32,454 bases of DNA, taken from contig JAQIBE010000100.1 in the NCBI GenBank assembly GCA_027859235.1, forward strand, positions 1 through 32,454, written 5' to 3'. This document shows, piece after piece, positions 3,378 to 17,320 of this stretch. The DNA comes from Desulfobulbaceae bacterium. GTDB taxonomy: Bacteria > Desulfobacterota > Desulfobulbia > Desulfobulbales > SURF-16. Every line of letters begins with the position of its first letter. Positions within the stretch are counted from its first letter, which is position 1. Below the pieces are notes generated by a model. It saw nothing but the letters and a program-made list of their open reading frames with translations, searched no databases and was not told where the DNA came from. The position numbers were made by a program, and so were the translations under genes.

Positions 3378-4385
3378 TTACCGGGTCTTAATACCGGCCT
3401 GGTAAATAATAAGGGCTTCAAGCCCGCCACTATAGACAAACTCTATCTTATATGTGCCTGGTGTATCTACATATTTAGAGATGTCAGCCGTGATTGGCGC
3501 AACATGTTCAGCTGCCGAGACAGCGTAAAAAGATGTCTTCTGAAGTTGCTCTGGCGACCAGTCGGCAACCTTGTGGGTGGAGCCGTCAGGAGTTGTAAGA
3601 TAAACATCGCCGGTGGAGTCGTTTGATTTTCTCCCATAGGCATGAAAGAAGAGTTCCGCGCCTCTTGGAGTCGGATTAATAGTAAAGGAGTAGGAGTTGT
3701 TCTTGTTATTCTCTCCAGAACCTGCAAAACCCTGTTTCGTTGAGCTGTATGTTTTAGGAACCGCAGATGATTTTTTTATGTTCTGGACTGCAGGAGCCAC
3801 CGCAACCTTTTTAACGGCCGCTTTTGGCGCAGGAGTTACAACTTTTATCGGTTTTGGAGCGGTCTTTCGGGGAGTAATTTCAGCAACGGTTGACCCTGCG
3901 TTTTGCATCGCCTGCTTGCGTTCTGTCTGGACAACAAGGGCCTCTGCAAGATTTCCCTGACGAATAAATTCGTCTTCCAGCTCTTTCAGGCTGGCAATAT
4001 AACGGGCCTGGATTTCTTTCTGGGCGTTCTGCTTTTGGCTTTCACGTAGAGCCTTATGCTTGCTCTCCACCACCTGCATTGTATTGTTTTTCAGTGTATC
4101 TTTTATCGCCTGATATTTATTTTTTATGGCTTGAATTTCCTTGGACTCCGCGGCATCGAGAGCACTCTTCTGGCGCATATAGGCCGGAGAGTTAAGGGCC
4201 TTCGCAGTATCTTTTTCGTATTGCTGCTGAAGTTTCTGGGGAGTGATGGATGCCTTCTTCTGTTTGGCATAGTCCTGCTTGAGCTGGATAAGTTGAGGTG
4301 GTTCCTGATCGATCGTGAGTACGGCAGCCTGTACTGATAAGGGCAGTAATGTGATGAATGTGAAAATAAATAGAAACTTAGGCAT
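3378..4385 (-). CDS. Secreted protein of unknown function: signal peptide, coiled-coil region, Pro/Ala/Lys linker, C-terminal beta-rich domain
   Basis: 335-aa ORF, MPKFLFIFTFITLLPLSVQAAV signal peptide; heptad-like charged region with 'YIASLKELEDEFIRQGNLAEALVVQTERKQAM'; linker TPRKTAPKPIKVVTPAPKAAVKKVAVAPAV; C-terminal ISKYVDTPGTYKIEFVYSGGLEALIIYQAG. Confidence 0.75.
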   Translation of the reverse strand: MPKFLFIFTFITLLPLSVQAAVLTIDQEPPQLIQLKQDYAKQKKASITPQKLQQQYEKDTAKALNSPAYMRQKSALDAAESKEIQAIKNKYQAIKDTLKNNTMQVVESKHKALRESQKQNAQKEIQARYIASLKELEDEFIRQGNLAEALVVQTERKQAMQNAGSTVAEITPRKTAPKPIKVVTPAPKAAVKKVAVAPAVQNIKKSSAVPKTYSSTKQGFAGSGENNKNNSYSFTINPTPRGAELFFHAYGRKSNDSTGDVYLTTPDGSTHKVADWSPEQLQKTSFYAVSAAEHVAPITADISKYVDTPGTYKIEFVYSGGLEALIIYQAGIKTR

Positions 4386-13318: not shown

Positions 13319-13828
13319 TCAGGTGGCTCCACAATCTTTTGTTCCGCCATTGATCTTATACACGGCATGTTCAAGTCCTGTAATCACAGCGTCCAGATTC
13401 TCCCGTGCCCCCCGTTCACTTCCCGGCAGGTTGATGATGAGGGTGGACTTGCGTATCCCGGACACGCCCCTTGAAAGGATTGCGTTGACGGTTTTTTTTA
13501 TGCTTGCCGCGCGCATGGCTTCGCTGATTCCTGGAATTTCCTTGTCAAGCAGGGGGAGGGTGGTTTCTGGCGCCTGGTCTGTGGGGCTTACACCCGTGCC
13601 TCCTGTGGTGAGGATGAGATCAAGTTTTTTGTCGTCCACCCAGCTCAGCAATGTTGCTTTAATCTGTTCGGGGTTGTCCGCAACAATACTATATTCTCTC
13701 ACCTCAAAGGGGCCAGCCGCTTCAATCTGTTTTTTTAATTGCGGTCCGCTGGTATCTTCCCGTAACCCCTGGGACCCCTTGTCGCTCATGGTGAGGATGC
13801 CGCATTTAAATATGGTTTTTTCCACCAT
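13319..13828 (-). CDS. mogA: MogA/MoaB-family molybdopterin biosynthesis protein
   Basis: GILTMSDKGSQGLREDTSGPQLKKQIEAAG...LILTTGGTGVSPTDQAPETTLPLLDKEIPGISEAMR...NLPGSERGARENLDAV. Start overlaps the upstream gene's stop (TGATG). Confidence 0.9.
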   Translation of the reverse strand: MVEKTIFKCGILTMSDKGSQGLREDTSGPQLKKQIEAAGPFEVREYSIVADNPEQIKATLLSWVDDKKLDLILTTGGTGVSPTDQAPETTLPLLDKEIPGISEAMRAASIKKTVNAILSRGVSGIRKSTLIINLPGSERGARENLDAVITGLEHAVYKINGGTKDCGAT

Positions 13829-15453
13829 CAGGGCCTTTCTCCATCGGTTTTTTCATAATGGGAGAATAACGCCTTGAAATTTCCCCGTCCACCAGTCATA
13901 TCTGCCAGTTCTGCGCCGTATTCAAGGATTTCTGCCATGGGAACGTGGGCAATGATCATTTCGTCTCGGGATTCAGAGCGCATCTCCATGATTTTTCCCC
14001 GACGTCTTCCAAGGTCGGTGATCACTTCACCAACACAGTCAACAGGGATAGTGACGTTGAGTTTCATTACAGGTTCAAGGAGTATCTTATCCTCCTTGCC
14101 TGTATCGTCCTGCTGCTGGTAGGGGATTCTTGGTAACGTCAGCTCAAGTTCGACGCCAAATTTCCTTTTTATCCTTTCGATTGCCACATCGAGATGTAGT
14201 CGACCTCCTCCTGAAATAAGTGTTTCTCCTGTGGAGGGTTCCTGGGTCAAATGTAGGGCATGGTCTTCAGACATCATTTTTGCAAGCACTGTGAACATGG
14301 TCTCTGTGTCGGTTGACTTGCTGGTGACGGCACAGGTGGCACAAGCCCTGGCGATGGGAGGTAATTCTTCATGCAGCAGACTGGTCTGTGGAGATCCTGT
14401 AAGGGTATCACCTGGCCCGCTGGAGGAAAGGTCGGTAATGATGGCAAACATGCCTGCTGGAACAATATCTGTTGCAAGCAGTTCGTTTGCCTGGGGAATA
14501 TGGAGGGAGCGTATTGTTTCCTCGACATTACGGGTGTTGTTGAAGATGGTGCCTGGGGTGAGGGTGCCTGCATTGATTTTGCAATAATATTGTACGCCGT
14601 ACTCCGGGTTATGATCCACTTTGAATATCTGGCAGGAGAGCGGCTGGTCATGACTCTTTGCAGGGGGGAATAATTCGCTCATTATCTGCATGAGAAAATA
14701 GGTTGATTTGTCTTGGGATGCTGAACCAGGCAGGACAGGTGAAAGTGCGCCTGATGCCACACCCCTACGGAGACCCGTAATGAGGGCACTCTTTTCAAGT
14801 TCGCCCTCTTCAAGGAGTTCTTCGATGAGATCATCATCTGTTTCCGCCACCTGTTCCATGAGGTGGCCCAGGGCAAGATAGGCATCTTTTTTAAGTTCAG
14901 GGGGGATCTCCCGAGCCTCATCAGGTGCTGTGAAATAATAGGCCTGTTCATTAATCACATCGACAATGCCGGAAAAACTGGCACCCGAACCAATTGGCAG
15001 ATACAGGACTGCTGGATCCAGTAAGATGTTGGTGCGGATGGCCTTGATGGTGCCGTTGAAATCTGCATCTTCAGTATCCATCTTGTTGATAAACAGGATG
15101 GACGGCATGGTCGACTGCTGAATGAGGGCGGCGGCTTTTTCTGTCTGGAAATGATGAGACTCATTAGCACAAATAGTTAAAATGGCATTGTCAGACACAT
15201 GGGCCAAGACCTGTGCTTCGTGGATGAAGTTCTCGTCACCCGGGGTGTCGGTCAGCATGATCTGGGTATTATTCCAAGGAAAAGAGACATGGCACGATGT
15301 GGTGGTCATATGGTGGCGCATGGATTCCGGGTCATGGTCGAGGAGCTGCTGTTCCTCACCCGCCTGTTTGAGGATTGCTTTGGCGAGTGTTGTTTTGCCG
15401 CATTTAGAATGGCCAAGTAGGATGATGTTTCGTGTAGTGATGGCTGCCCCCAT
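13828..15453 (-). CDS. EF-G-like translational GTPase lacking domain IV (541 aa)
   Basis: P-loop GHSKCGKTTLAKAIL, G3 DTPGDENF, G4 NKMD; domain III 'LISGGGRLHLDVAIERIKRKFGVELELTLPRIPY'; domain V 'KILLEPVMKLNVTIPVDCVGEVITDLGRRRGKIMEMRSE...LADMTGGRGNFKALFSHYE'. About 10 residues join domains III and V. Confidence 0.88.
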   Translation of the reverse strand: MGAAITTRNIILLGHSKCGKTTLAKAILKQAGEEQQLLDHDPESMRHHMTTTSCHVSFPWNNTQIMLTDTPGDENFIHEAQVLAHVSDNAILTICANESHHFQTEKAAALIQQSTMPSILFINKMDTEDADFNGTIKAIRTNILLDPAVLYLPIGSGASFSGIVDVINEQAYYFTAPDEAREIPPELKKDAYLALGHLMEQVAETDDDLIEELLEEGELEKSALITGLRRGVASGALSPVLPGSASQDKSTYFLMQIMSELFPPAKSHDQPLSCQIFKVDHNPEYGVQYYCKINAGTLTPGTIFNNTRNVEETIRSLHIPQANELLATDIVPAGMFAIITDLSSSGPGDTLTGSPQTSLLHEELPPIARACATCAVTSKSTDTETMFTVLAKMMSEDHALHLTQEPSTGETLISGGGRLHLDVAIERIKRKFGVELELTLPRIPYQQQDDTGKEDKILLEPVMKLNVTIPVDCVGEVITDLGRRRGKIMEMRSESRDEMIIAHVPMAEILEYGAELADMTGGRGNFKALFSHYEKTDGERP

Positions 15454-15730: not shown

Positions 15731-17320
15731 ATGCAAAAAGCTTCTGCTGATACTACCACTGTTGCTAAATCTGCCGGCCTTGTTTCCATTGCCATCATGT
15801 GTAGTCGTGTCCTGGGTCTTATTCGGGAACAGGTGTTTGCCTATTTTTTTGGTGCAGGTTTTGCCTATGACTCCTTTGTGGTTGCTTTTCGTATTCCTAA
15901 TCTGCTCCGGGATCTTTTTGGTGAAGGGGCGTTGTCGGCAGCCTTTGTTTCAGTATTCTCAGATTATAACGTAAATAAGGGTGAGGTGGAGACGTGGAAG
16001 CTTGCCAATAATGTCCTGGCGTTTTTTGGGATTTTGCTCAGTCTGTTGACCTTGCTTGGTATTTATTTTGCGGAAGATCTTGTTCTGCTTCTCGTGGACG
16101 GGGAATTTGAAGCAGATGTTGCCAAGGTTGCTTTGACGACAACGCTTGCCTCCATTATGTTTCCTTTCCTGATCTTAATCTCCCTGTCGGCAGTGGTGAT
16201 GGGGGCGCTGAATACAAAGGGTAAGTTCTTTGTTCCGGCAATGGCCTCAGCCTTTTTTAATATGGGCTCTATTGTTGGCGGTCTTGGCTGTGTGTATTGG
16301 TTTTCAGCTCTGGGGTATCCACCTATTTCAGGTATGGCAGTGGGGACGCTCATTGGTGGAGGGCTGCAGCTTTGCTGCCAGCTCCCGTTACTGCGCAAGG
16401 TTGGTTTCAGGCTTCGCCCCTATCTGAATTTACGTGATCCTGGTCTACGGCGCATCCTTGTCTTGCTTGCCCCTGCTGTTATCGGTGTTTCTGCTACGCA
16501 ATTTAATGTTTTTGTGAATACGAAGTTTGCCTCAGCCTGTATCCCCGGTTCTGTTTCCTGGCTCAACTATGGCTTTCGTTTGGTGCAGCTGCCCATTGGC
16601 GTGTTTGGTGTGGCCTTGTCCACTGCAACTCTGCCGCTGCTTGCTAAATATATTTCAAGGGGAGAGGTGTCACGGGTGCGTGACTCCCTTGCTTCATCCC
16701 TCACCATGGGGTTTTGTCTCGCCATTCCTTCAGCTGTGGGGTTGTGGGTTTTGGCGGAACCCATTATTCGCCTCATCTTTGAGCATGGTAGGTTTAATGC
16801 CGTTGATACAATGAACACGGCGAGTGTTCTGCGCTTTTATTCCCTTGGTCTTTTTGCCTATGCCGCTGTGAAGATCCTGGCCCCGGCGTTTTACGCCTTG
16901 GAAGATTCCCGTGTGCCGGTTATCGGGAGCTTTCTTGCTGTGGGGGTAAACTATGGGTTTGTTTCCTATTTTGTTGGGGAGTATGGGTTCAATGCCATTG
17001 CCATGTCACTTGCCGTTTCCATGAGTTGTAATTTTCTTTTTCTTTTTGTGGTGCTGAGTAGAAAGCTGTCAGGGTTTTCCTATTCCTATGTTGGGCTGGC
17101 ACTTGTGAAAATTATCATTGCTGCAGGCTGTATGGGTGGGTGGCTGTACTTTGCTGCAGGTTTATTTGATCCGGCTGCATGGTCGCTGCTGCAGCAGGTT
17201 TTATCGGTGGGCTTTTATGTAGTGACCGGTGGTGCGGTGTATGGCGTGCTGCTGCATATGCTGCAGCTGCATGAAATGACAGCGATTATTGCAAAGGTGA
17301 AAACACGGATTGCAGGGTGA
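15731..17320 (+). CDS. murJ: Lipid II flippase MurJ (MviN family)
   Basis: VSIAIMCSRVLGLIREQVFAYFFGAGFAYDSFVVAFRIPNLLRDLFGEGALSAAFVSVFSDY, typical MurJ N-terminus; 529 aa polytopic. Confidence 0.95.
   Translation: MQKASADTTTVAKSAGLVSIAIMCSRVLGLIREQVFAYFFGAGFAYDSFVVAFRIPNLLRDLFGEGALSAAFVSVFSDYNVNKGEVETWKLANNVLAFFGILLSLLTLLGIYFAEDLVLLLVDGEFEADVAKVALTTTLASIMFPFLILISLSAVVMGALNTKGKFFVPAMASAFFNMGSIVGGLGCVYWFSALGYPPISGMAVGTLIGGGLQLCCQLPLLRKVGFRLRPYLNLRDPGLRRILVLLAPAVIGVSATQFNVFVNTKFASACIPGSVSWLNYGFRLVQLPIGVFGVALSTATLPLLAKYISRGEVSRVRDSLASSLTMGFCLAIPSAVGLWVLAEPIIRLIFEHGRFNAVDTMNTASVLRFYSLGLFAYAAVKILAPAFYALEDSRVPVIGSFLAVGVNYGFVSYFVGEYGFNAIAMSLAVSMSCNFLFLFVVLSRKLSGFSYSYVGLALVKIIIAAGCMGGWLYFAAGLFDPAAWSLLQQVLSVGFYVVTGGAVYGVLLHMLQLHEMTAIIAKVKTRIAG

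Follow-up and report, generated by a model that had tools for sequence, protein, structure and literature searches.

The working end of EF-G is considered to be its domain IV. Two described factors, BipA (TypA) and LepA (EF4), combine domains G, II, III and V without it; both also lack the G' insert and carry a distinctive C-terminal domain. A laboratory EF-G from which domain IV was removed has nearly the domain set of the protein described here, and this deletion is cited in PMC4896748 as abrogating translocation. EF-Gs that occur in addition to the normal one include the EFG II subfamily (T. thermophilus EF-G-2, 1wdt), which was described by Margus and colleagues as carrying a Gly before the P-loop His and a Leu at T. 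thermophilus position 28 and as lacking RGITI; domain IV is the part reported to be conserved to the same degree in both EFG I and EFG II (PMC3150367). Bacteroides EF-G2 (8dmf), reported to be without GTPase activity, has domain IV and translocates. Here we describe a natural EF-G-type protein that contains no domain IV.

The window analysed is a stretch of 32,454 nucleotides from a Desulfobulbaceae bacterium (contig JAQIBE010000100.1), in which no RNA families or tRNAs were found. A preliminary description, made from the sequence alone, had drawn attention to an EF-G-like open reading frame at 13828-15453; the frame and the quoted motifs were present exactly as claimed. The frame is intact, with the stop codon included at 13828, and encodes a protein of 541 amino acids (hereafter short EF-G) that consists of domain G with its G' insert and domains II, III and V (Table 1). 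Pfam matches were obtained with GTP_EFTU (residues 7-263), EFG_III (370-438) and the domain V family EFG_C (458-539, E 1e-23), while the match to EF-Tu/EF-G domain 2 was weak (E 0.04-0.15). Neither EFG_IV nor the LepA/BipA C-terminal domain was matched in the Pfam search of the protein, the latter result confirming the earlier statement that the C-terminal domain typical of BipA and LepA is absent. In an alignment with the solved EF-G of T. thermophilus, residues 7-447 corresponded to residues 12-485 and residues 452-536 to residues 595-679, and about 110 residues between domains III and V were absent. The segment between these domains is 6-8 amino acids long in seven short forms (eight in the window protein) versus 112-115 amino acids in full-length relatives from the same family.

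An AlphaFold model of short EF-G (pLDDT 86, pTM 0.84) matched ribosome-bound EF-G best (4v9h, TM 0.88 by query length), and no equivalent of domain IV was seen elsewhere in it. A full-length orthologue modelled in the same way showed the strands and helices of domain IV at residues 483-588 and a C-terminal helix at residues 673-683. No separately encoded domain IV was found, EFG_IV being present in the source genome only in two other EF-Gs. The absence of domain IV at the junction of domains III and V, the central claim of the preliminary description, was borne out by Pfam, by the T. thermophilus alignment, by the segment lengths and by the model.

Table 1. Features of the short EF-G gene and its neighbours (positions in the window).
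Feature	Position	Strand	Basis
short EF-G, 541 aa (G, G', II, III, V)	13828..15453	-	ORF, Pfam, alignment, AlphaFold model
P-loop GHSKCGKT, residues 14-21, intact	15391..15414	-	alignment
shortened switch I region, residues 31-53	15295..15363	-	alignment
switch II DTPGDENF, residues 69-76; Asp for catalytic His	15226..15249	-	alignment
G4 motif NKMD, residues 123-126	15076..15087	-	alignment
helix A of G', residues 196-217; presumed L7/L12 contact	14803..14868	-	conservation
truncated G-II linker, residues 264-272	14638..14664	-	alignment
domain II, residues 272-366	14356..14640	-	weak Pfam match, alignment
domain III, residues 367-446	14116..14355	-	Pfam, alignment
junction QDDTGKED, residues 448-455, replaces ~113-aa domain IV	14089..14112	-	alignment
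domain V, residues 456-531, then ~10 disordered residues	13861..14088	-	Pfam, model
mogA (MoCF_biosynth), downstream neighbour	13319..13828	-	Pfam family
murJ, divergent upstream neighbour	15731..17320	+	conserved across most of order

According to the preliminary description, the protein closes with an ordinary EF-G domain V. This part of the claim did not hold: the C-terminal helix that follows domain V is absent from all seven short forms in the alignment, and in the model of short EF-G some 10 disordered residues stand in its place. In S. aureus EF-G, domain IV is made up of residues 481-603 together with residues 675-693, the C-terminal helix (PMC3352095). Judged from the alignments, domain IV is lost as a structural unit, comprising the 113-amino-acid segment plus the C-terminal helix, in a deletion that follows the fold. 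Two further deletions common to the short forms were overlooked in the initial account of a clean removal of domain IV, which is otherwise confirmed: about 10-15 residues before the G2 motif of switch I, compared with full-length orthologues, and about 20 residues of the G-II linker.

At the nucleotide site, the P-loop was kept in the short forms, and so was NKMD, but in four species of one genus the latter reads NRMD. Short EF-G retains the Thr at the Mg-binding position of switch I, while RGITI (G2) and the DTPGH of switch II are absent from it. Both EFG II marks are present, the Leu lying two residues after the T of GKT, and the best NCBIfam match was PRK12740.1-5, i.e., the EFG II subfamily. 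The catalytic His position of switch II is occupied by Asp in six of the seven short forms and by Asn in the seventh; in all 21 full-length relatives examined it is Asp, from which we conclude that the His change preceded the loss of domain IV. With the H91E substitution, E. coli EF-G retains intact GTP binding, but its ribosome-stimulated hydrolysis is about 100-fold slower and its release of phosphate is also slowed (PMC4532990). Given the change of His to Asp, GTP hydrolysis by short EF-G is probably slow. The four short forms with NRMD (G004, G012, G016 and G018; loci L051, L050, L048 and L049) also have NTPG for DTPG, a combination that may weaken Mg and GTP binding further. Among the full-length paralogues, exemplified by L056:8492-10555, DTPGDDNF is found instead of DTPGHVDF, with Asp throughout the sampled order. 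This full-length paralogue, with its domain IV, is probably a GTPase-impaired EF-G and may merit study itself.

The short form was found in seven species of three genera within a family represented by 22 genomes; one of the seven lies in JAJRUT010000016.1, a deltaproteobacterial MAG. Identity to the window protein was 78% within the same genus and 50-60% in the other two genera, and the frames were intact in all seven genomes. In pairwise comparisons of short forms, dN was 0.10-0.15 versus a dS of 0.65-3, the larger dS values being near saturation, with dN/dS of about 0.05-0.2, which indicates that the short forms are under strong purifying selection. The preliminary description had named as support a clade of orthologues of about 540 amino acids that keep the junction, and such a clade, monophyletic and with low dN/dS, is what these seven species form. 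An intact domain IV in close relatives, which would have spoken for a local deletion, was not observed: relatives in its own genus and in two sister genera are without domain IV as well.

The best conserved stretch of the protein is helix A of G', which we take to be the L7/L12 contact (90% identity within short forms, 77% between short and long forms). Domain V, which in EF-G contacts the sarcin-ricin loop and the stalk base, is 70% identical within short forms and 53% between short and long forms. Since these two elements are kept best, the ribosomal recruitment surface appears to be retained. The corresponding short versus long identity is 40% for domain III and 29% for domain II, the most diverged domain; domain II contacts the 30S shoulder, so the binding mode may have changed.

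The gene is part of a conserved locus in which murJ lies divergently on one side and mogA downstream on the other, the ATG of mogA overlapping the TGA of the EF-G gene by one base. At the same locus, in the other genera of the family and across the order, a full-length EF-G paralogue of about 690 amino acids is found, within the whole or part of the same arrangement. We conclude from these comparisons that the full-length gene at this locus is the ancestral state kept in other genera and not a strain-level difference, and that the parent of short EF-G is an EFG II-type full-length paralogue, an assignment based on the same-locus full-length genes of this order. In a phylogenetic tree the short forms were monophyletic (100/100) and nested among the full-length forms of the order; their stem measured 1.25 substitutions per site, compared with 0.13 for the median end branch. 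In a LeuS tree the same seven species were likewise grouped together (100/100), and there the stem was just 0.15. Monophyly, nesting and the long stem at a shared locus argue that domain IV was lost once, in situ. The characterization of the protein as an EF-G-like GTPase holds as far as EF-G descent is concerned, but it missed that the ancestor was an EFG II-type rather than a canonical EF-G and that the switch II His had already been lost.

In the source genome, fusA is kept together with one more EF-G, and each of the two contains domain IV. One or two EF-Gs bearing EFG_IV were found per short-form genome versus three in two relatives with the full-length form; in a third such relative, G006, only one was found. 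From these copy counts, the short form most likely replaces the third copy and is not added to it. Towards their ends, two full-length orthologues, L063 (G020:C88) and one in G022:C61, are interrupted by an in-frame stop (TAA and TAG, respectively), which may reflect a frameshift, a truncation or an assembly error. Elsewhere in the window, at 3378-4385, there is a 335-amino-acid ORF without a Pfam match, which occurs at the same place in L047 (52% identity) and L048 (40% identity).

Among 258 genomes (69 genera) of the order, a contiguous match across domains III and V was given only by the seven short forms (E <= 1.5e-66); the next best match (3.7e-42) was split. In a sample of 395 genomes of the phylum, a search at E <= 1e-43 yielded no contiguous case besides the window protein; strongly diverged ones could escape this cut-off. 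The best EF-G matches listed for plasmids were about 29% identical and, like those of full-length forms, stopped at residue 447-452. In the accessible, largely open-access literature, no account of a naturally occurring EF-G that lacks domain IV was found.

Short EF-G was compared with described factors. It has domains G/G', III and V of the EF-G translocase but not domain IV, RGITI or DTPGH. BipA and LepA, with which it shares G, II, III and V without domain IV, are ruled out by the presence of G' and the absence of their C-terminal domain, RF3 (no domain V, a C-terminal domain of its own) by the EFG_C match, and the Tet(M)/Tet(O) protection proteins, whose domain IV loops dislodge tetracycline, by the lack of domain IV. 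Short EF-G shares with EFG II the P-loop marks, the lack of RGITI and its occurrence beside a normal EF-G; it differs in having no domain IV, with its conserved Lys-Lys loop, no C-terminal helix and a shortened switch I. Like Bacteroides EF-G2 it would be expected to hydrolyse GTP poorly, but it has no domain IV. Compared with the laboratory deletion, it is natural, also lacks the C-terminal helix and is changed in switch I, switch II and domain II. Since the domain that defines the translocase is absent, the annotation as elongation factor G is unsuitable.

We lean towards the view that short EF-G is a non-translocating, slowly turning-over occupant of the ribosomal factor-binding centre. In this role it would serve idle ribosomes or 50S subunits as a placeholder or brake. 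In much of the order, a full-length EFG II-type paralogue stands between murJ and mogA; in the common ancestor of the three genera the domain IV unit was lost, along with stretches of switch I and of the G-II linker. Branch lengths and dN/dS indicate that this loss was accompanied by a burst of change, after which constraint was renewed. The resulting protein should still bind GTP; its G' helix would bring it to the ribosome via L7/L12 and its domain V via the sarcin-ricin loop/L11 region, and it would occupy the factor site. Since it has no part that could reach into the decoding centre and carries an acidic residue in place of the catalytic His, neither tRNA translocation nor fast GTP hydrolysis is expected, and elongation and recycling would be carried out by the two full-length EF-Gs. 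Ribosome binding without translocation, as first proposed, is plausible and is strengthened by the conserved presumed L7/L12-binding helix and domain V; overall, the earlier interpretation is supported. As a counterpoint, nucleotide binding could be weakened in the four of seven species with Asn for the Asp of DTPG, and none of the gene neighbours points to translation control, the coupled gene being mogA.

The main rival, which we consider unlikely, is a BipA/LepA-like factor for large-subunit assembly or stress, acting on immature 50S subunits or cold-stressed ribosomes. The shared domain set and the NCBIfam scores of short EF-G (TypA/BipA, E 2.7e-35; LepA, E 1.1e-23) are consistent with such a function, but G' is present, a LepA-type C-terminal domain is not, the tree derives the protein from an EF-G paralogue, and the genome probably has BipA/LepA homologues of its own (matches of 604-656 amino acids covering domains II-V). 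A role in splitting ribosomes, or in some other partial EF-G reaction for which domains G-III and V suffice, is distinctly improbable: EF-G members with divided duties exist (mtEFG2, spdEFG2) and a good superposition of the model on 39S-bound mtEFG2 was obtained, but splitting together with RRF is believed to involve contacts of domain IV and two other full-length EF-Gs are encoded in the genome. Less probable still is an off-ribosome, GTP-dependent helper in molybdenum-cofactor synthesis working with the translationally coupled MogA. The stop/start overlap is in its favour, and mogA follows the EF-G paralogue in nearly all genomes examined; however, full-length forms with domain IV are linked to mogA just as the short forms are, so the linkage is older than the loss of domain IV and does not account for it, and the best kept parts are domain V and the helix presumed to contact the ribosome. 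A decaying gene or an assembly artefact, which the long stem might suggest, is ruled out by seven separate genomes with intact frames, low dN/dS and a conserved junction.

Returning to the factor-site occupant, we propose more tentatively that short EF-G may represent a new functional class, in which an EF-G paralogue was turned by loss of the whole of domain IV into a non-translocating, slowly hydrolysing protein, G-G'-II-III-V being useful alone. A natural removal of domain IV that has persisted while the proteins diverged to about 50% identity offers a ready test of what the remainder of an EF-G can do on a ribosome. It also bears on the purpose of the widespread, poorly understood EFG II paralogues: if translocation were their main activity, one would not expect a loss of domain IV first to be tolerated and later to be preserved.
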